The position numbers and the translations under genes were made by a program. Source: Actinokineospora baliensis (GTDB lineage: Bacteria > Actinomycetota > Actinomycetes > Mycobacteriales > Pseudonocardiaceae). From it: a DNA stretch of 64,000 nt. Location: positions 4,080,001 through 4,144,000 of the forward strand of contig NZ_JAFBCK010000001.1 of NCBI RefSeq assembly GCF_016907695.1, written 5' to 3'. The notes under the pieces were generated by a model. The model was not told where the DNA came from and made no database searches. It worked only from the letters and a program-made list of their open reading frames with translations. Positions 2,778 through 34,832 of this stretch are shown piece after piece (positions within the stretch are counted from its first letter, which is position 1; each line of letters starts with the position of its first letter).

Positions 2778-2896
2778 GTTTCGGCGGTCATAGCGGTGGG
2801 GAAACGCCCGGTCCCATTCCGAACCCGGAAGCTAAGCCCACCTGCGCCGATGGTACTGCACTCGTGAGGGTGTGGGAGAGTAGGACGCCGCCGGAC
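2778..2896 (+). rRNA. rrf: 5S ribosomal RNA
   Basis: A 119-nt 5S gene follows the 23S gene after a spacer of about 115 nt. The ends GTTTCGGCGGTC and GACGCCGCCGGAC pair as helix I. The loop blocks CCCATTCCGAACCCGGAAG and CCGATGGTACTGCACT are typical of bacterial 5S rRNA. The 23S-5S spacer (2663-2777) contains no tRNA. The order 23S-5S followed directly by a terminator marks the end of an rRNA operon. Confidence 0.96.
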
Positions 2897-2909
2897 AATC
2901 ATTCGAGAA

Positions 2910-2934
2910 CCCCCACCAGGATCCCTGGTGGGGG
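2910..2934 (+). terminator. Intrinsic terminator of the rRNA operon
   Basis: A perfect 11-bp stem (2910-2920 with 2924-2934; arms CCCCCACCAGG / CCTGGTGGGGG) with a 3-nt loop lies 13 bp after the 5S gene. It is followed by a T-rich stretch (ATTTCTCGTTTT), the classic factor-independent form. Confidence 0.93.
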
Positions 2935-2992
2935 ATTTCTCGTTTTCCGGCTCGCCTGCGGCATTGCGACCGGGTCCGTGGTGGTGCGGTGG

Positions 2993-3136
2993 GCTCGATG
3001 GGGCGAACCTGTTTTGCGCGGGGCCCCTGCGCCGCCCGTGGCAGGACCGCAAAGCTGGGGCCGAAAAGCATGGCCCTGCAGCGCACAACGCTACGGGCAC
3101 CGCCACCCCACACAAAACAGGTCCACCCCATCGAGC
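2993..3136 (-). repeat. 144-bp long-hairpin element, copy A
   Basis: The sequence begins GCTCGATGGGG and ends CCCCATCGAGC. Its terminal arms (about 31 bp each: 2993-3023 and 3106-3136) are fully complementary when G-U pairs are allowed. Read on the minus strand it aligns along its whole length with the plus strand of 33596-33740 at close to 90% identity, including the inner blocks CATGCTTTTCGGCCCC and GCTTTGCGGTCCTGCCACGG. It sits between two convergent transcripts (5S rRNA and the first SEFIR gene). No ORF in it is plausible. It could be a MITE-like element, a bidirectional terminator or a structured RNA. Confidence 0.85.
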
Positions 3137-3168: not shown

Positions 3169-4140
3169 TCACAACACGGCTCGCCCGCCGAACGGGTTGG
3201 TGATCCCGAGCAGCCTGCACTGGTGGTCGAACTTGTTGAGCGCCTTCAGCGATCGCACCTCGCCCCAGGCGGCGAGCAGCAGCGGGCCGACCAGGAACAG
3301 GCTGCTGGGCCGGTTCGCGATCCCGCCGACGTTCAGGGCGATCACGCGCAACGAGACGACGAGGCCCAGGTAGGTCTCCTGCCACTGGCGAACCCGCCGG
3401 CGGTCTTCCTCACTGGTGGGCAGTCGCACCGCGCTGAGCCGCCACCAGCCCGCCTCCGCGGCGTCGTGGAAGCGGCGGATCGTTCGCGCGTGCTCGACCC
3501 AGCCCGCCTTGGTGATCAGCGGTTTGCGCACGTCCTGTTCGCGCGCCCTGGCCAACTCGGCGCGGATCGCCAGGCAGTGCGGGGAGACCTCCGCCGCGTA
3601 CCCCACCAGGTCCCTCGGCGCTTGCGACCGGTGTCGCTCGGGCTCGGGTTCGGGCGGCAGCGGCGGGACCGCGCCGGGAGCGGGTTTGATCCGGCGCCGC
3701 TGGTGGGTGATGACGCGGACCAGGTCCTCGATCCCCGGGCTGCTCAGCTCCGAGATGGCGAAGTGGCTGGTCAGCGCGGGCATCAGGAACCGCGGCAGAT
3801 CGGCGGGGGAGTGGGTGGGCAGGACCACGGGGAGGATCTTGGCGGTCCACGTGCGTGGGGCGCTGTGCAGCAGGTCGCGCAGGATCGTCGTCTCGGCGAA
3901 TACCCGGTCGGCGCGGCCGGTCCCGCCCGCCGCGGCGGCATAGCGGGGTGAGGCGACGGCGATGACGCGGTCAGCGGACAGGATCGCCCCCGTCGCCCAC
4001 GCCTGCCAATCCAGGCGTTCGTGCTCCCACTGGTCCAGGACCACGTCGATACCCGCGGCGACCAGGAGACGGGCGAGGAAGCGCACGTCGTCCTCGTGGT
4101 CGGCCGAGTCGTGGGCGTAGCTGAGGAACACCTGGGGCAA
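3169..4140 (-). CDS. SEFIR-domain protein, copy 1
   Basis: Encodes about 323 aa. Residues roughly 3-155 resemble the SEFIR branch of the TIR superfamily: VFLSYAHDS at the first strand, GIDVVLDQWEHE at about residue 40, then VIAVASPRY. The C-terminal half holds a shared motif (RLPTSEEDRRRVRQWQETYL) found in the two neighbours but not recognised. I prefer the TTG start at 4140 over the GTG at 4167, because GGAGGGGA lies about 8-10 nt upstream of the TTG; the same arrangement recurs in all three copies. Known: bacterial SEFIR and TIR proteins act in phage defence, often by depleting NAD. Inferred: an effector here. No separate sensor domain is recognised. Last gene of a three-gene tandem array. 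Confidence 0.8.
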   Translation of the reverse strand: MPQVFLSYAHDSADHEDDVRFLARLLVAAGIDVVLDQWEHERLDWQAWATGAILSADRVIAVASPRYAAAAGGTGRADRVFAETTILRDLLHSAPRTWTAKILPVVLPTHSPADLPRFLMPALTSHFAISELSSPGIEDLVRVITHQRRRIKPAPGAVPPLPPEPEPERHRSQAPRDLVGYAAEVSPHCLAIRAELARAREQDVRKPLITKAGWVEHARTIRRFHDAAEAGWWRLSAVRLPTSEEDRRRVRQWQETYLGLVVSLRVIALNVGGIANRPSSLFLVGPLLLAAWGEVRSLKALNKFDHQCRLLGITNPFGGRAVL

Positions 4141-4195
4141 GATCGCGTCCCCTCCGGCCGGTGCCACGGGCGTCGAAGATCATCCCACGTGCCCC

Positions 4196-5143
4196 CTACC
4201 CGGACGCAGCCTTCTCGAGCAGTTCGCTCTGGTGCTTGAACTCGGAGAGCCGCTTGGCCACCCGGGTCGCCGCGTGGCTGACGACGAACGGGTCCGCCAG
4301 GGCCAGCAGGGTGGGCTTGCTCGCCCACTCCTCGCACGCCGCCGCGAGCTGGCCCGCCGCGGTCGTGAACCGCAGGTAGGACTCCTGCCACCGGCGCACC
4401 TGACGGCGATCTTCTTCGGCGGTCGGCAGCCGCACCGCGGCCAGGGCGGACCACCCCGCGTCGAACGCCGCGTGGTGGCGGCGAATCCTCTCCGCGTTGG
4501 CCCTGCGGCCCGCCTTCGTCAGCAGCGCGAGGTCGCCCTGCTCCCAGGTTTCCGGGGTGAGTTCGGCCTGCAGCGCGTTCCCGAGCGGGGCCACGTCGGC
4601 GACGTAGGCCGCTAGGTCGCGGGGCTCCTCCCGCAGCTGCGGTTCGGGGGTCGGTGGCAGCAGCGGGATCTCGCCGAGGGCGGGCTTGAGGAGGCGCGGC
4701 TGCCCGGTGATCACGCGGACCAGGTCCTCGATCCCGGGGCCGCTGAGCTCGGTGATCGCGAAGTGGCCGGTCAGCGCCGGGAGCAGGAACCGCGGCAGGT
4801 CGCGGCGGGAGTGGGTGGGCAGCACCACGGGGAGGATCTTGGCTGTCCACTCCGCTGGGGCCTCTTGCAGCAGGTCGCGCAGGATCGTCGTCTCGGCGAC
4901 TGCCCGCCCATCGACCTGGCTCGTCCCGTCCGCCGCCGCCGCGTACCGGGGCGACGCGACCGCGATGACCCGGTCAGCCGTGAGGATTGCCCCGGTTGCC
5001 CACGTGTGCCAGTCGTGGCGCTCGTGTTCCCACTGGTCGAGCACCACGTCGATTCCCATCGCCACCAGGAGGCGGGAGAGGAAGCGCACGTCGTCCTCGT
5101 GCTCGGTCGAGTCGTGCGCGTAGCTGACGAACACCTGGACCAA
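4196..5143 (-). CDS. SEFIR-domain protein, copy 2
   Basis: Encodes about 315 aa and is paralogous to both neighbours over its whole length: SEFIR-like N-terminal domain (VFVSYAHDS, GIDVVLDQWEHERHDW, VIAVASPRY) and the same C-terminal region with RLPTAEEDRRQVRRWQESYL. The TTG at 5143 is preceded by GGAGGGGA; the GTG at 5170 is an alternative start. The gene lies about 30 bp from the next copy on either side and all three run the same way, so one transcript is likely. Its 5' 160 bp are almost identical to copy 3, while the rest has diverged. It could act alone or in a complex with the paralogues; the sequence does not decide. Confidence 0.8.
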   Translation of the reverse strand: MVQVFVSYAHDSTEHEDDVRFLSRLLVAMGIDVVLDQWEHERHDWHTWATGAILTADRVIAVASPRYAAAADGTSQVDGRAVAETTILRDLLQEAPAEWTAKILPVVLPTHSRRDLPRFLLPALTGHFAITELSGPGIEDLVRVITGQPRLLKPALGEIPLLPPTPEPQLREEPRDLAAYVADVAPLGNALQAELTPETWEQGDLALLTKAGRRANAERIRRHHAAFDAGWSALAAVRLPTAEEDRRQVRRWQESYLRFTTAAGQLAAACEEWASKPTLLALADPFVVSHAATRVAKRLSEFKHQSELLEKAASG

Positions 5144-5173
5144 GATCGCGTCCCCTCCAGCGGGTGCCACGGG
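5011..5173. repeat. Near-identical patch shared with 6020-6182
   Basis: These 163 bp cover the start region and first 40-odd codons of SEFIR copy 2. By eye they differ from 6020-6182 at only about five or six positions, although the remainder of the two genes has drifted far apart. The patch includes the ribosome-binding site and leader. Confidence 0.85.
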
Positions 5174-5201
5174 TGCGAGATCATCCCACTCGGCACGGAG
5201 T

Positions 5202-6152
5202 TCAGGTCGTCGGGTTGGCGATGCCCAACAGGGTGCTGCGGCGGCTGAGCTCTGAGTAGGCGTTGTTCGCGCGCATCATGGACCAGCCGGTGGCGAGCGA
5301 GGCGCCTGGCAGCAGGGCGAGGAGCGGGCTCTTCGCGATCTTCGTGGTCCTGCCTGAAGCCTCGTCGAGCAGTTGTACCAGGCGAAGGTAAGCCTCCTGC
5401 CAGTGGCGGACACTGCGTCGGTCGTCCTCACCGGTGGGCAGTGGCACCGCGCTCAGGTCGTGCCAGCCCGCCTTGAGGACATCGTGGAACTGGTGGAGTC
5501 TGCGGGCGCTCGCGCCCCAGCCCTCGGTCGTACGGCTCGCCTCGTCCATGTAGCTGCGGATCCTCAGGCACACCAGCGACACGTCCGCAGCGTAATCTTC
5601 CATACCCCGGTGCACCTGCTTCTCGGAGCGTCGCTCGTCGAGGTCCGCCTCCGGCTCCGGCGGGAGGTGTGGAATCCCCCCTACCGCGGGGCGGACCCGC
5701 TTCGGCTGCTTGGTGATCACGCGAACCAGGTCTTCCACCCCAGCACTGCTGAGCTCGGTGAGCGTGTAGTAGTCCGCGATCGAAGGGGTCAGGAAGTCGG
5801 GGAGATCGCATGGGCCGTACTGGGGGAAGACGACGGGGAGGATCTTGGTTGTCCACTCCGCCCAGGAGCTGACCAGCCGGTCGCGCAGTGCTTTCGCCTC
5901 GTGCACCACTGTGCGGTCCGCGTAGGTGCCGTTCCCGTTGGCCGCAGCGACATAGCGGGGCGAGGCGATCACGATGACGTGATCCGCGTCGTAGATTGCC
6001 CGCATGACCCACTCTGACCAGTCGTGGCGCTCGTGCTCCCACTGGTCCAACACCACGTCGATTCCCATCGCCACCAGGAGGCGGGCGAGGAAGCGCACGT
6101 CGTCCTCGTGCTCGGTCGAGTCGTGCGCGTAGCTGACGAACACCTGGACCAA
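5202..6152 (-). CDS. SEFIR-domain protein, copy 3
   Basis: Encodes about 316 aa and is the most upstream gene of the tandem trio. The N-terminal domain carries VFVSYAHDS, GIDVVLDQWEHERHDW and VIVIASPRYV. The C-terminal half keeps PLPTGEDDRRSVRHWQEAYL and ends with a hydrophobic segment (LLALLPGASLATGW) that could touch a membrane. The TTG at 6152 has GGAGGAGA about 8-10 nt upstream, better placed than the two upstream GTGs (6179, 6200). The C-terminal region diverges more than the N-terminal one, as expected if that part recognises different triggers. This is inference from family behaviour. Confidence 0.8.
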   Translation of the reverse strand: MVQVFVSYAHDSTEHEDDVRFLARLLVAMGIDVVLDQWEHERHDWSEWVMRAIYDADHVIVIASPRYVAAANGNGTYADRTVVHEAKALRDRLVSSWAEWTTKILPVVFPQYGPCDLPDFLTPSIADYYTLTELSSAGVEDLVRVITKQPKRVRPAVGGIPHLPPEPEADLDERRSEKQVHRGMEDYAADVSLVCLRIRSYMDEASRTTEGWGASARRLHQFHDVLKAGWHDLSAVPLPTGEDDRRSVRHWQEAYLRLVQLLDEASGRTTKIAKSPLLALLPGASLATGWSMMRANNAYSELSRRSTLLGIANPTT

Positions 6153-7380: not shown

Positions 7381-9024
<1,644 letters not shown>

Positions 9025-9063
9025 TTGTTCACCTCGGAAGGGAGCAGGGATAACACTGTCTAC

Positions 9064-9079
9064 CGTGGTCCAGACCAAT
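9064..9079. promoter_or_regulatory. DasR-type dre box 1 upstream of chitinase
   Basis: CGTGGTCCAGACCAAT agrees with 12 of 16 positions of the published dre consensus ACTGGTCTAGACCACT. It lies 40 bp before the chitinase start. A dasR gene is present at 13983. Confidence 0.8.
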
Positions 9080-9088
9080 TCTTCGGGA

Positions 9089-9104
9089 CAAGGTCTAGAC
9101 CAAT
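9089..9104. promoter_or_regulatory. DasR-type dre box 2 upstream of chitinase
   Basis: CAAGGTCTAGACCAAT has a perfect palindromic core GGTCTAGACC. It lies 25 bp (centre to centre) from box 1. Paired boxes suggest tight repression by DasR. Confidence 0.85.
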
Positions 9105-9173
9105 AGTCTCACTCGAATGGAGCAGTGGCGCCAATCGAACGGACCGTCTGGGTGCGCGTGCGGACACGCGCGG

Positions 9174-10676
9174 TCACCGATCGGTGAGACCGGTGGGGTT
9201 GGTGTGCCTGGCTCGTCCGGACACCGCGGCCGCGCTGATCACCTCCGCCGCCGCGCGCAGGCTCGAGCGCGAGCCGCCGAACGTGTCGATCCGGCCCAGG
9301 GCGCCCAGTTCGGGCCCCGGGGTGCCGGTTTCCACGTGCACGACCGCCGTGGCGGCCCGGACGAGGCCAGCCACCAGTTCGAGCACCGCGGGGTGCCGGT
9401 GCGCGTCACGGGTGGTCACGACGACCTCCCGCCCGCGCGCCAGCTCGAACAGCTCGCCCGGCTCCGCCGCGGTCACCCGCAGGGCCCTCGTGCCGGGGAG
9501 CAGTTCGACCAGGTGCGGGCCCAGTCCCCAGGGGACCGGACCGGCGGCGATGGTCGGCTCGACTTCCACGTCGACCACCACCAGTTCAGGGGACAACGCT
9601 GGGAGGTGGGTGGTCCGCGTGGCCTTGCGCGCCACGGTCATGCCCAGGTCCACCTCGTCGCGCGCGGCGACGCCACCGGTCGGCGGCACACCAAGCGAGC
9701 GGGTGCGCTCGGCCGCGTGCGCCAGCCTCTCCTCCGACAGCGTGCCCGCCACGACCTCGGCCACGATCCGCTCGACGATCACCGCGACCGCGTCGGCGTC
9801 GGCGATCTCGCCGCCGATGCACAGCGCGTCCGCCCCGGCCCGCAGCGACCGCACCGCGGCGTCGGCCAGACCGGCCGCGTTGCCCAGGTGCCCGGCCACC
9901 GCGCCCATCTCCAGCGCGTCGGTGACCACCGCCCCGGTGAAGCCGAGTTGGCCGCGCAGCACGTCCTGGATCGCCGTCGGGTTGACCGTCGCGGGGTCCT
10001 CGCCCCACCCGGGCACCACCAGGTGCCCGGTCATCACCGACCGCACCCCCGCGGCGATCGCCGCGCGGAACGGGACGAGCTCCACCGCGTCGAGCTCCTC
10101 CGGTGTGCGCGGCAGCACCGGCAGGGTGAAGTGCGAGTCCGAAGTGGACGCACCGTGCCCCGGGAAGTGCTTGGCGCAGGCCGCGACGCCCGCGCTCTGC
10201 ATGCCGCGCACGTAGGCGGCCACGTGCGCGGCCGCGGCGTAGGGGTCCGCGCCGAAGGCGCGCACCCCGATGATCGGGTCGTCCGGGGTCAGCGTCAGGT
10301 CCGCGCACGGCGCGAGGTCCAGGGTGACCCCGCAGGCGGCGAGCCTGGCGCCCAGCGCGGTGCCGACCTCGGCGGTGAGGCCGAGGTCGGCGGCCGCGCC
10401 GAGCGCCAGCGGTCCGGGCAGCGTGGAGCCGGTGGCGGCGTCGAGCCTGGTGACGTCGCCACCCTCCTCATCGATGCCGATGACCACGTCGGCGCGCTCG
10501 GCCCGCAGTTGCGCGGTCAGCGCGGCGACCTGCTCGTCGTCGACGATGTTGCGCCCGAACAGCACCACCCCGCCCAGGCCCTCGGCCAGCCGCTCCCGCA
10601 CCCAGTCCGGGGCGCTGGTGCCCGCGAATCCGGGCAGCAGCACACCCTCGGCGAGCGCGTGTAAGCGCGAGGCCAT
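9174..10676 (-). CDS. dasD: GH3 beta-N-acetylglucosaminidase (DasD/NagZ type)
   Basis: Encodes about 500 aa without a signal peptide, so it is cytoplasmic. The GH3 N-acetylglucosaminidase signature KHFPGHG lies near residue 168, followed by the SDSHF loop that holds the Asp-His acid/base dyad. The nucleophile motif is VVTDALEM near residue 252. The ATG at 10676 overlaps the dasC stop by one base (TGATG), showing translational coupling. In Streptomyces the dasABC genes are followed by dasD, an intracellular enzyme that releases GlcNAc from imported chito-oligosaccharides. Synteny and motifs support the same job here. Recycling of peptidoglycan sugars, as for NagZ, is an alternative. A 12-bp palindrome (9175-9186) overlaps the stop codon. 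Confidence 0.9.
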   Translation of the reverse strand: MASRLHALAEGVLLPGFAGTSAPDWVRERLAEGLGGVVLFGRNIVDDEQVAALTAQLRAERADVVIGIDEEGGDVTRLDAATGSTLPGPLALGAAADLGLTAEVGTALGARLAACGVTLDLAPCADLTLTPDDPIIGVRAFGADPYAAAAHVAAYVRGMQSAGVAACAKHFPGHGASTSDSHFTLPVLPRTPEELDAVELVPFRAAIAAGVRSVMTGHLVVPGWGEDPATVNPTAIQDVLRGQLGFTGAVVTDALEMGAVAGHLGNAAGLADAAVRSLRAGADALCIGGEIADADAVAVIVERIVAEVVAGTLSEERLAHAAERTRSLGVPPTGGVAARDEVDLGMTVARKATRTTHLPALSPELVVVDVEVEPTIAAGPVPWGLGPHLVELLPGTRALRVTAAEPGELFELARGREVVVTTRDAHRHPAVLELVAGLVRAATAVVHVETGTPGPELGALGRIDTFGGSRSSLRAAAEVISAAAVSGRARHTNPTGLTDR

Positions 10677-26934: not shown

Positions 26935-27020
26935 CCGCTTCCTTACGCCCGGCTCGCCCCGACTGTCTCCGCCGCGCGCTGAAACACCCGCCCCGGGAGC
27001 GCGGCTACCCTTCGCGCCGA

Positions 27021-27313
27021 CCGCGCCCACCGCGCCCACCGCGCCCACCGCGCCCACCGCGCCCACCGCGCCCACCGCGCCCACCGCGCCCACCGCGCCC
27101 ACCGCGCCCACCGCGCCCACCGCGCCCACCGCGCCCACCGCGCCCACCGCGCCCACCGCGCCCACCGCGCCCACCGCGCCCACCGCGCCCACCGCGCCCA
27201 CCGCGCCCACCGCGCCCACCGCGCCCACCGCGCCCACCGCGCCCACCGCGCCCACCGCGCCCACCGCGCCCACCGCGCCCACCGCGCCCACCGCGCCCAC
27301 CGCGCCCACCGCG
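27021..27313. repeat. Perfect 9-bp minisatellite, 32 copies
   Basis: The unit CCGCGCCCA is repeated 32 times without a single change (27021-27308) and ends with a 5-bp partial unit. It lies between the convergent ends of the response regulator (26934) and protease copy 2 (27456). It opens all reading frames (RPP, GGR, GAV or RWA repeats), but no frame has a convincing start or composition, so I do not call a gene. The remainder of 26935-27455 holds only a hairpin at 27411-27441. Confidence 0.97.
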
Positions 27314-32881: not shown

Positions 32882-33454
32882 GTGAGCGACACCCCGGTGG
32901 TCCCCACCTCAATCAAGATCGTCGTGGCAGGCGGCTTCGGCGTCGGCAAGACCACCATGGTCAACTCGGTGAGCGAGATCCCCCCGCTGCGCACCGAGGA
33001 AGTCCTCACCGAAGCCAGCGTCGGCGTCGACGACATGCGCGGCATCGAAGGCAAGGAGACCACCACGGTCGCCCTGGACTTCGGCCGCATCACCATCAAC
33101 CCCCAGGTCGTGCTGTACCTGTTCGGCACCCCCGGTCAGAACCGCTTCTGGTTCATGTGGGACGAACTGGCCCACGGCGCCCTGGGCGCCATCGTGCTGG
33201 TCGACACCCGCAGGCTCGACTCCAGCTTCCCCTCCATCGACTTCTTCGAACGCCGCGACATCCCGTTCATCATCGCGGTCAACGGCTTCGAGGGCTCCTG
33301 GGAACACACGGCGGACGAAGTCCGCCAAGCCCTGGACATCGCCCCCACCGTCCCCATCATCAACTGCGACGCCCGCCTCAAGCAGTCCAGCAAGGACGTC
33401 CTGGTCGAGCTGGTCCAGTACACAATGGACCTCCTCAACAAAGCCCCCGTCTAG
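32882..33454 (+). CDS. cvnD: CvnD, Ras-like small GTPase
   Basis: Encodes 190 aa. The P-loop is GGFGVGKTTMVNSV, the switch II region is LFGTPGQNRFWFMWDEL, and VNGFEG stands where classical GTPases have NKxD, as is usual for this subfamily. It is the signalling output of the conservon. GTG 32882 has GGAGGA about 10 nt upstream; an ATG at 32858 would overlap cvnC by 20 bp and is less likely. Confidence 0.92.
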   Translation: MSDTPVVPTSIKIVVAGGFGVGKTTMVNSVSEIPPLRTEEVLTEASVGVDDMRGIEGKETTTVALDFGRITINPQVVLYLFGTPGQNRFWFMWDELAHGALGAIVLVDTRRLDSSFPSIDFFERRDIPFIIAVNGFEGSWEHTADEVRQALDIAPTVPIINCDARLKQSSKDVLVELVQYTMDLLNKAPV

Positions 33455-33457
33455 CCG

Positions 33458-33580
33458 CACCCACCCCGGCCCCCGAACCCGGCCCACCGAGCCAACCCAC
33501 CAAAGCAACCACCCGAGTCAGCCCACCCAAACCCAACCCACCGAGCCAGCCCCGCCAGCCCGACCACTGGACACTCGGAG
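33458..33580 (+). terminator. C-rich, G-poor trailer, candidate Rho-dependent terminator
   Basis: The 120 bp after cvnD are strongly C-rich with A and few G or T (CCAACCCACCAAAGC and similar runs), unlike the flanking coding DNA. Such unstructured C-rich RNA is the known loading site for Rho. No hairpin is present before the element at 33596. Confidence 0.5.
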
Positions 33581-33595
33581 TCGCTGGTGCCAACT

Positions 33596-33740
33596 GCTCG
33601 ATGGGGTGGATCTGTTTTGTGTGGGGGTGCGGCGTCCGTAGCGTTGTGCGCGGACAGGGCCATGCTTTTCGGCCCCGGCTTTGCGGTCCTGCCACGGGCG
33701 TCGTAGGGGCCCCACGCAAAACAGGTCCACCGCATCGAGC
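33596..33740 (+). repeat. 145-bp long-hairpin element, copy B
   Basis: Inverse-oriented homologue of 2993-3136. The terminal arms (33596-33626 and 33710-33740) form 31 pairs with one mismatch. Inside them GGCGTCCGT (about 33631) can pair with ACGGGCGTC (about 33695), and CAGGGCC with GGTCCTG, so the whole element can fold as one rod. It lies between the convergent cvnD and CBS genes, as copy A lies between convergent transcripts. No target-site duplication is obvious. Confidence 0.85.
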
Positions 33741-33800
33741 CTGCACTTAAATCGCGGATCCAGTGCAAGGCGCGAAGCGACGAGCCGACCCCCAAGCGCC

Positions 33801-34832
33801 TCAAGCGTCCGTCTCGTCCTCAAACTCCCCGAGGATCTCCTCCAGCAGATCCTCCAACGCCGCCAACCCCACAACCTCCCCACCAGCCGCCACCAACGCC
33901 AACTGCGCCCGTTCCCCCCGCATCCGCCCCACCGCGTCCGCCGCGCTCAACTCCGCGCCCAGCACCAGCGATGGCGTCATCAACTCCTCAGCCGTAGCCG
34001 AAGCCGCTGACATCGTCGCCCGCACCGCGTCCCGCACGTGCACCAACCCAACAGGTTCCCCGCGCGCGTCCAGCACGAACAACCGCGACCGCCCGCTCGT
34101 CCGGCACACGTCCTCGATCTCGCCGACCGACGCCGTCGAGTGCACCGCGACCATCGCCGACCGGGGCGCCATGACCTGCCGGACCGTCGTCTGCTGTGCT
34201 TCGAGCACGCCGGAGAGCATCTGGTGCTGTTGTTCCGGCAGCAGCCCGTGTTCCCGCGATTCCCGCAACAGCATCCGCAGGTCGTCCGGCCCGTGCGCTT
34301 GGGCGACCGTGTCCTGCGGCTCGACCTTCACCGCGCGCAGCGTCGCGTTGGCGAGTCCGTTGAGGACGGTCAGCACCGGGCGGAACACCCGGGTGAACGC
34401 GCGGAACGGCAGGGCCAGCCACTGGGCCGACCGTTCCGGGTGGGAGATCGCCCAGGACTTCGGGGCCATCTCGCCGATCACCATGTGCAGGAACACCACG
34501 ATGGCGACCGCGAGGACGAAGGCGATCGGGTAGCTCCAGGCCTCCGGCAGGCCCAGTGCGGTGAACAGCGGGTCGAGCAGGTGCGCCACCGCGGGTTTCG
34601 CGAGGGCGCCGAGGCCGAGGGTGCACAGGGTGATCCCCAGTTGCGCGCCCGCCAGCATCACCGACAGTTCGCGGGTGCCCGCGACGGCCGCCCGCGCGGC
34701 GCGGCTGCCCTCCGCGGCGGCTTCCTCGAGCCGGTGGCGTTTGCTGGCGACCAGGGCGAACTCGGCCGCCACGAAGAACGCGTTCGCGACCAGCAGCACG
34801 AACGACACGAGAAGAGCGGGTCCGGTGCTCAC
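33801..34832 (-). CDS. CNNM/CorC-type CBS-domain membrane protein, short
   Basis: Encodes 343 aa. The N-terminal DUF21 membrane domain has four hydrophobic segments (VSFVLLVANAFFVAAEFALV ... GAQLGITLCTLGLGALAKP ... VIGEMAPKSWAISHPE). A CBS pair follows (VMAPRSAMVAVHSTASVGEIEDV; PVGLVHVRDAV). The C-terminal CorC/HlyC domain of the partner gene is missing. Known: CNNM-type proteins transport or sense Mg2+ and other divalent cations. Its GTG start overlaps the upstream partner's stop codon by 4 bp, so the two are co-translated and probably form a complex. Confidence 0.88.
   Translation of the reverse strand: MSTGPALLVSFVLLVANAFFVAAEFALVASKRHRLEEAAAEGSRAARAAVAGTRELSVMLAGAQLGITLCTLGLGALAKPAVAHLLDPLFTALGLPEAWSYPIAFVLAVAIVVFLHMVIGEMAPKSWAISHPERSAQWLALPFRAFTRVFRPVLTVLNGLANATLRAVKVEPQDTVAQAHGPDDLRMLLRESREHGLLPEQQHQMLSGVLEAQQTTVRQVMAPRSAMVAVHSTASVGEIEDVCRTSGRSRLFVLDARGEPVGLVHVRDAVRATMSAASATAEELMTPSLVLGAELSAADAVGRMRGERAQLALVAAGGEVVGLAALEDLLEEILGEFEDETDA

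Follow-up and report, generated by a model that had tools for sequence, protein, structure and literature searches.

Bacterial genomes commonly contain small palindromic repeats, whose mover is known mainly for the REP/RAYT system. BOX elements are hairpins inside modular intergenic arrays. ERIC sequences are described as intergenic, single long stem-loops of 127 bp present in tens to hundreds of copies (PMC2267715, PMC10969869), and REPINs and REPs as miniature non-autonomous hairpin units with compensatory changes and tandem clusters (PMC3116915). According to one account, REPs are palindromes of 20-40 nt with GTAG or CGTC as a terminal tag (PMC3733652); their doublets are inverted. Prokaryotic MITEs (Correia/NEMIS, QMITE2) are characterized as being shorter than 500 bp, intergenic, bounded by terminal inverted repeats of ~30 bp and capable of giving a folding transcript (PMC10969869).

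The element described here, from Actinokineospora baliensis, resembles each of these systems in part. Like ERIC it is an intergenic long stem-loop of similar size and many copies, but it belongs to another bacterial lineage, has another sequence (it is set apart from ERIC by description), and possesses a second stem, a conserved apex and a fold that is kept despite near-total change of the letters in the arms. With REPINs and REPs it shares the non-autonomous hairpin, compensatory changes and tandem clustering; however, the unit is one hairpin of 145 bp rather than two short inverted REPs, and Y1_Tnp (PF01797, RAYT-type) was found in none of four core genomes (G000, the host, plus G244, G236 and G220). 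Its ends are not REP tags: core-clade copies have GCTCGAT there and copies elsewhere have other words, and a GTAG inside core-clade copies is not conserved among divergent species. Size (139-150 nt across the elements examined), intergenic position and terminal inverted repeats (31-bp arms) are those of a MITE, whereas adjoining target duplications, which a MITE would show at least in its young copies, are absent (0 of 178 copies), the element is not AT-rich (GC of the two copies studied 0.67-0.69; surrounding window 0.71), and an end-word search of ~759 kb of core-clade sequence found no parent insertion sequence. As with BOX, the hairpin lies within modular intergenic arrays, but what is copied here is only the hairpin, amid modules that vary. 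The U-tract that follows the GC-rich hairpin of an intrinsic terminator is missing from nearly all copies. In behavior, then, the element appears to be a structured, genus-specific mobile repeat resembling ERIC, REPINs and MITEs, but without the target duplication of MITEs and, in the core genomes, without the RAYT and end tag of REPINs; to its being a non-autonomous structured mobile repeat of ~140-150 bp with ERIC/REPIN-like behavior we assign a probability of roughly 0.6.

Two copies in the window and a family in one genus

The window analyzed is a stretch of 64,000 nt, positions 4,080,001-4,144,000 of the 7.68-Mb single-contig genome of A. baliensis. Alignment and folding define two copies of the element: copy 1 at 2993..3136 on the minus strand and copy 2 at 33596..33740 on the plus strand (the plus strand of the element is the one carrying GCTTTTCGGCCCC, which for copy 1 is the minus strand of the window). 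An initial annotation, made from the sequence alone, had described two copies aligning end to end at close to 90% identity, with 31-bp arms and several differences that keep pairing, each between converging genes. This description holds in full: the coordinates are correct, 131 of 145 alignment columns are identical with a single 1-nt gap, the pair-keeping differences are present in the alignment, and both gaps are convergent by gene calls. In the palindrome register the arms of the outer stem (P1) lie at 3106..3136 (5' arm) and 2993..3023 (3' arm) in copy 1, on the minus strand, where they form 27 Watson-Crick and 4 G.T pairs, and at 33596..33626 (5' arm) and 33710..33740 (3' arm) in copy 2, on the plus strand, with 28 Watson-Crick pairs, 2 G.T pairs and one mismatch. 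Folding of the stated strand gives one long hairpin in each case (-103.4 kcal/mol for copy 1, -99.6 kcal/mol for copy 2; z-scores -7.61 and -8.67), and none of 200 shuffles was equally stable.

Copy 1 is bordered by an rRNA operon (5S at 2780-2896, plus strand) and a TIR/SEFIR-domain gene (3169-4131, minus strand); the operon's conventional terminator hairpin, followed by a T run, lies between 5S and copy 1 (2904..2942, plus strand), outside the element. Copy 2 is bordered by an ATP_bind_1 family gene (32882-33454, plus strand) and a CNNM/CBS gene (33801-34832, minus strand). Its left flank is a module (CTGGACACTCGGA plus GTCGCTGGTGCC; 33564..33595, plus strand) that is common to many other copies and interchangeable; its right flank (33741..33791, plus strand) consists of ATCGCGGATC followed by a small hairpin module. 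The TIR/SEFIR-domain gene is the first of three related genes in a row at the end of the rRNA operon (3169-6143), with matches to TIR_2/SEFIR; four matches of this type occur in the host and one in A. diospyrosa, its stop beside its own contig end. Elsewhere in the window (27013-27313) there is a 9-bp tandem array (CGCGCCCAC) of 33.4 copies with 99% matches.

In the host genome the core word of the element has 166 matches and the reversed-pattern control none. Under a stricter arm pattern there are 64 matches on the forward and 65 on the reverse strand, which are the same places on both strands because the pattern is near-palindromic; 14 copies in a contiguous 359 kb of the host extrapolate to ~300 genome-wide. 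The element is a discrete, fixed-end unit that occupies well over a hundred host sites. The outcome against which the initial annotation had set its proposal (only two copies genome-wide and no covariation in relatives) did not occur, covariation being present as well.

The exact core word was found in four of 297 genomes of the family Pseudonocardiaceae, all four from one genus. A scan of named genomes with the same word returned 92 stretches, 89 of them from Actinokineospora diospyrosa, A. globicatena or A. terrae; the other three (Pseudomonas, a Clostridia MAG and another MAG) have no match to the family profile and are put down to chance. A covariance-model search, a kind of check that the annotation had proposed, detected the family in 13 of the 16 genomes of Actinokineospora: there were at least 150 matches each in the host, G244 and G078, and 134, 123, 111, 103, 103, 89, 32, 20, 12 and 7 in ten others, counts that may include some elements twice since the palindrome allows a match on each strand. 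Three genomes of the genus (G201, G211 and G228) gave no match to the model. Nine of the 13 carriers were recovered in a second model search, and 37 divergent members from the genus score 68 to 114 bits. By comparison, the model did not find the family in 40 stretches from 40 other genera of Pseudonocardiaceae (33 of 20 kb, five of less than 2.2 kb, one of 5.3 kb and one of 17.8 kb), the best match in 738 kb (these stretches and 12 loci of the genus) reaching 20.4 bits (E 0.048). A sample of 296 genomes of the phylum, with 10 candidates per genome and strict filters, returned only the window's own, and distant blastn plus one exact core word gave no match in phage, plasmid and viral collections. 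As far as tested, the element is confined to Actinokineospora, a genus of soil bacteria.

The initial annotation knew of no named family with this sequence, and none was recognized here. In the window only 23S and 5S rRNA exceeded the Rfam thresholds, and in five divergent loci only tRNAs; a match to mir-2545 (34 bits, threshold 94) was rejected as generic hairpin likeness. Searches of an open-access library listed no description of this repeat family. In genome G167 many of the listed matches begin 24-300 bp from the start of a contig (C2, C42, C43, C55, C60, C70, C74, C81 and others), from which it follows that the assembly breaks at these repeats: the repeat marks assembly break points in Actinokineospora.

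Fold, covariation and strand

The outer stem of the hairpin, P1, spans 30-31 bp and leads into an internal loop of unequal sides, the 3' one of which mostly reads (U)AGGGG ahead of P1's CCCC. Beyond this loop come a second stem, P2 (~10-14 bp), and a conserved apex of ~50 nt that includes a 7-13 bp helix. Across the core clade (81 distinct sequences, 47 pairs) 98.7% of cells are paired. Cells in which both partners have changed number 161, against 45.4 (sd 8.3) after shuffling, and none of 500 shuffles reached this value; sliding the partner by 1-3 columns left at most 37, although the structure was derived partly from the same sequences and the test therefore favors it. The genus-wide set (44 sequences, 25 outer pairs) is 99.3% paired, with double changes in 23 of the 25 pairs. 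Here 219 double-change cells compare with 47.0 (sd 7.6) in shuffles, and covariation is 0.655 vs 0.200 (slid controls: 0.106 at most); kinship among sequences inflates double-change counts, but the slid controls come nowhere near the observed values. The arms still match even though identity, 0.916 within genomes, drops to 0.67 between them (16 elements, 6 genomes): the fold is conserved while the letters differ between species.

A bistable apex, in which one strand pairs with either of two downstream strands, was considered as a general feature and rejected. It is clear in some elements: in 12 of 42, five or fewer of 200 mononucleotide shuffles did as well, whereas in 10 of 42 more than 100 did. 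At four loci (L254, L265, L274 and L282) the apex strand can pair with either of two tandem complements separated by a T-rich spacer.

If selection acted on double-stranded DNA alone, imperfect pairs would be G.T and A.C equally often on a given strand. This is not what the arms show. In the plain palindrome register, G.T outnumbers A.C by 362 to 10 in the outer arms of 166 distinct sequences from the core clade, although 344 of the 362 G.T cells fall at five positions, all five G.T-leaning, which leaves few independent cases. A set of 42 elements, of which 37 are divergent, contains 63 G.T against 1 A.C. The plus strand has the more stable fold in 38 of these 42 elements, by a margin of only a few kcal/mol in many divergent species, and consensus folding of the core set gives -74 for the plus strand and -32 for the minus strand. 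If the pairs are instead drawn from the opposite strand's fold, the balance is reversed (31 G.T vs 173 A.C), because those pairs were selected for that strand; the conclusion on strand rests on the palindrome register, which is neutral between the two. Since G.T greatly exceeds A.C on one strand, a single-stranded fold of the plus strand, whether RNA or ssDNA, seems to be preserved, and the simplest reading is that this single-stranded form would be the one selected.

How copies arise

The difference in identity within and between genomes also bears on the origin of copies: each tested species has its own close-knit set of copies, and amplification is species-specific. At single loci presence varies. 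The gap that holds copy 2 is syntenic in four species, three of which have an element in the same orientation; it is absent from A. globicatena. A. diospyrosa has an element in a gap of 831 bp that measures only 28 bp in the host, and it lacks a counterpart to one host cluster of three copies; these differences span whole repeat arrays, so none provides a clean empty site for a single unit. The three copies in the shared gap are 80-88% alike, which is no more than unrelated copies are, and gene conversion could account for unlike copies in the same gap and orientation.

Comparison of 98 host copies (4753 pairs) shows what is copied. Identity reaches 98% or more in 81 pairs and is complete over the hairpin in 10. 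Of these 10, at least two lie in flanks that differ in type on both sides, others have a partly common flank, and one is a pair of array neighbors with shared flanks. Identical hairpins in unrelated flanks imply that copying can involve the hairpin by itself, with its ends fixed. Flanks fall into several left and several right types, freely combined, and exact 12-mers detected no left-right junction without a hairpin at the loci examined. Beside the ends of the 81 closest pairs the flanks have mean identities of 0.72 and 0.70 (~0.6 in less similar pairs), and 6-mers shared within 16 nt of both ends number 20, against 9.2 in shuffles (largest shuffle, 15). Together these suggest that flanks are sometimes copied along with the hairpin; the excess of displaced 6-mers may be explained by the pairing of flank types. 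Flanking duplications, which the initial annotation had proposed to map, did not materialize: direct repeats of at least 3 nt adjoin none of 178 copies, where shuffling predicts 1.8, and adjoining 2-nt repeats number 12 against 6.9 expected.

Copies are often grouped. Among 100 listed of the 166 core-word places there are 73 clusters (52 single, 15 double and 6 triple), many clustered copies recur at a period of 237-241 bp, and 27 neighbor gaps are shorter than 1 kb where 2.2 are expected. Other short modules are arrayed in the intergenic flanks of core-clade copies (e.g. L144, L113 and L160), with GACGACGTTGGCC units of ~30 bp on the upstream side and small hairpins of the GCCGAAGGC type on the downstream side. 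Such clustering, the short modules around the displayed copies, the free recombination of left and right flank types and the unlike copies in orthologous gaps are all what one would expect if no mover were involved, the repeat spreading passively by homologous recombination, tandem duplication and gene conversion in repeat-rich gaps, with arms kept matched by hairpin-templated repair. However, identical hairpins in flanks of another type require copying into unrelated DNA, and arm repair predicts no strand preference, yet G.T far exceeds A.C; passive spread is for these reasons unlikely.

The one-strand wobble, together with the strong covariation of the stem on one strand and the conserved apex, would also suit a multi-copy structured RNA: the plus strand would be transcribed and its fold would function in the cell. 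Against this, 7 to at least 150 matches per genome and species-specific amplification better suit a mobile element; copies in the core clade have no orientation bias to neighboring genes (18 same and 19 opposite in tandem gaps of the host, 12 and 11 in relatives); three genomes of the genus have no element; and no Rfam family reached its threshold. We consider a structured RNA of this kind decidedly unlikely.

If the element is a mobile repeat, a trans-acting enzyme would recognize the folded single strand (ssDNA or RNA) and copy the unit to new places, and being recognized would be what selection acts on. A more specific version, possible but tentative, is that the repeat moves as a folded single strand by means of an enzyme other than Y1/RAYT, without target duplication, co-evolution between enzyme and fold rewriting the arms in each species but leaving the fold intact. 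If this were true and the intermediate were RNA, the repeat would be a bacterial counterpart of a SINE. PF01797 is present in two of the 16 genomes of the genus, one with 20 element matches (G190) and one without the element (G201). Copies show no replication-strand bias, 51 of the first 100 of the 166 core-word places being on the leading strand when the origin is set at dnaA (1.386 Mb) and the terminus assumed to lie past 4.5 Mb, which gives no support to ssDNA movement of the IS200/IS605 type. Outside elements the end word occurs at 11 places in the ~759 kb searched, mostly coding; among the 11 are one IS4-family insertion inside a copy and two short end fragments. The mover is searchable by comparing the 13 carriers with the three genomes of the genus that lack the element.

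The IS4-family insertion (Nterm_IS4, DDE_Tnp_1) lies within the 3' arm of a hairpin copy (L188, ~8420-9897, equivalent to ~4,332,420-4,333,897 of the host genome), with a 10-bp repeat, GCGCAAAACA, at its ends.

Position between genes

Genes were predicted by a custom script (coding fraction 0.75-0.85; some genes were missed), and gap statistics are based on one count per gap, for gaps of up to 1500 bp. No copy overlaps a predicted gene, either in the core clade (0 of 198) or in divergent species (0 of 37). The 90 gaps with an element comprise 59 convergent, 30 tandem and 1 divergent, against 28, 89 and 52 among 169 element-free gaps of 150-1500 bp: the enrichment of convergent gaps (59/90 vs 28/169) is highly significant (Fisher's exact test, P = 3e-15). 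Divergent species behave likewise: of 20 gaps, 15 are convergent and the remaining 5 tandem, while a further gap, divergent and 1511 bp long, narrowly exceeded the size limit. The repeat is thus an actinobacterial example of repeats crowded into convergent gaps, although the initial annotation, in supposing that a mobile element of this kind tolerates only such sites, went too far, given the 30 tandem gaps.

A role in termination is not supported. Five or more T in the 8 nt past the foot were found in only 2 of 179 copies per strand. At the two sites inspected, the rRNA operon and position 4,283,800 of the host (the latter with an orthologue of 97% identity in A. diospyrosa), the gene is separated from the element by strong hairpins of the conventional terminator type. 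In convergent gaps the frequency of a post-stop hairpin with z of -2 or below does not differ with and without the element (28/105 and 18/56; P = 0.58). The near-absence of a U-tract, the genes' own terminators and the equal post-stop signal led us to reject termination as the main explanation, and the element seems to occupy space left over past termination. That the long hairpin has been domesticated as a bidirectional terminator or insulator, ending or blocking both converging transcripts, is very improbable: its great stability and the convergent bias, seen also in divergent species, would fit, but to the three observations just given is added that the copy-2 gap of A. globicatena works without the element. 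Of the alternatives offered by the initial annotation, the structured terminator is therefore disfavored, while the mobile element gains from the many copies, the exact unit, the differences in presence and absence, the amplification and the convergent bias itself. For a mobile repeat that bias would mostly reflect sites at which insertion is harmless, past terminators and away from promoters.

In the core clade, orientation relative to the nearest gene end is not clearly biased (P = 0.049 in a single bin out of twelve). The divergent sample has a 9-to-2 antisense lean at 60-100 bp, largely from one species. Five copies at loci L258, L273 and L281 of genome G179 (L273 and L281 assigned to it by likeness) lie 61-77 bp from a stop codon and are antisense to the gene that ends there.
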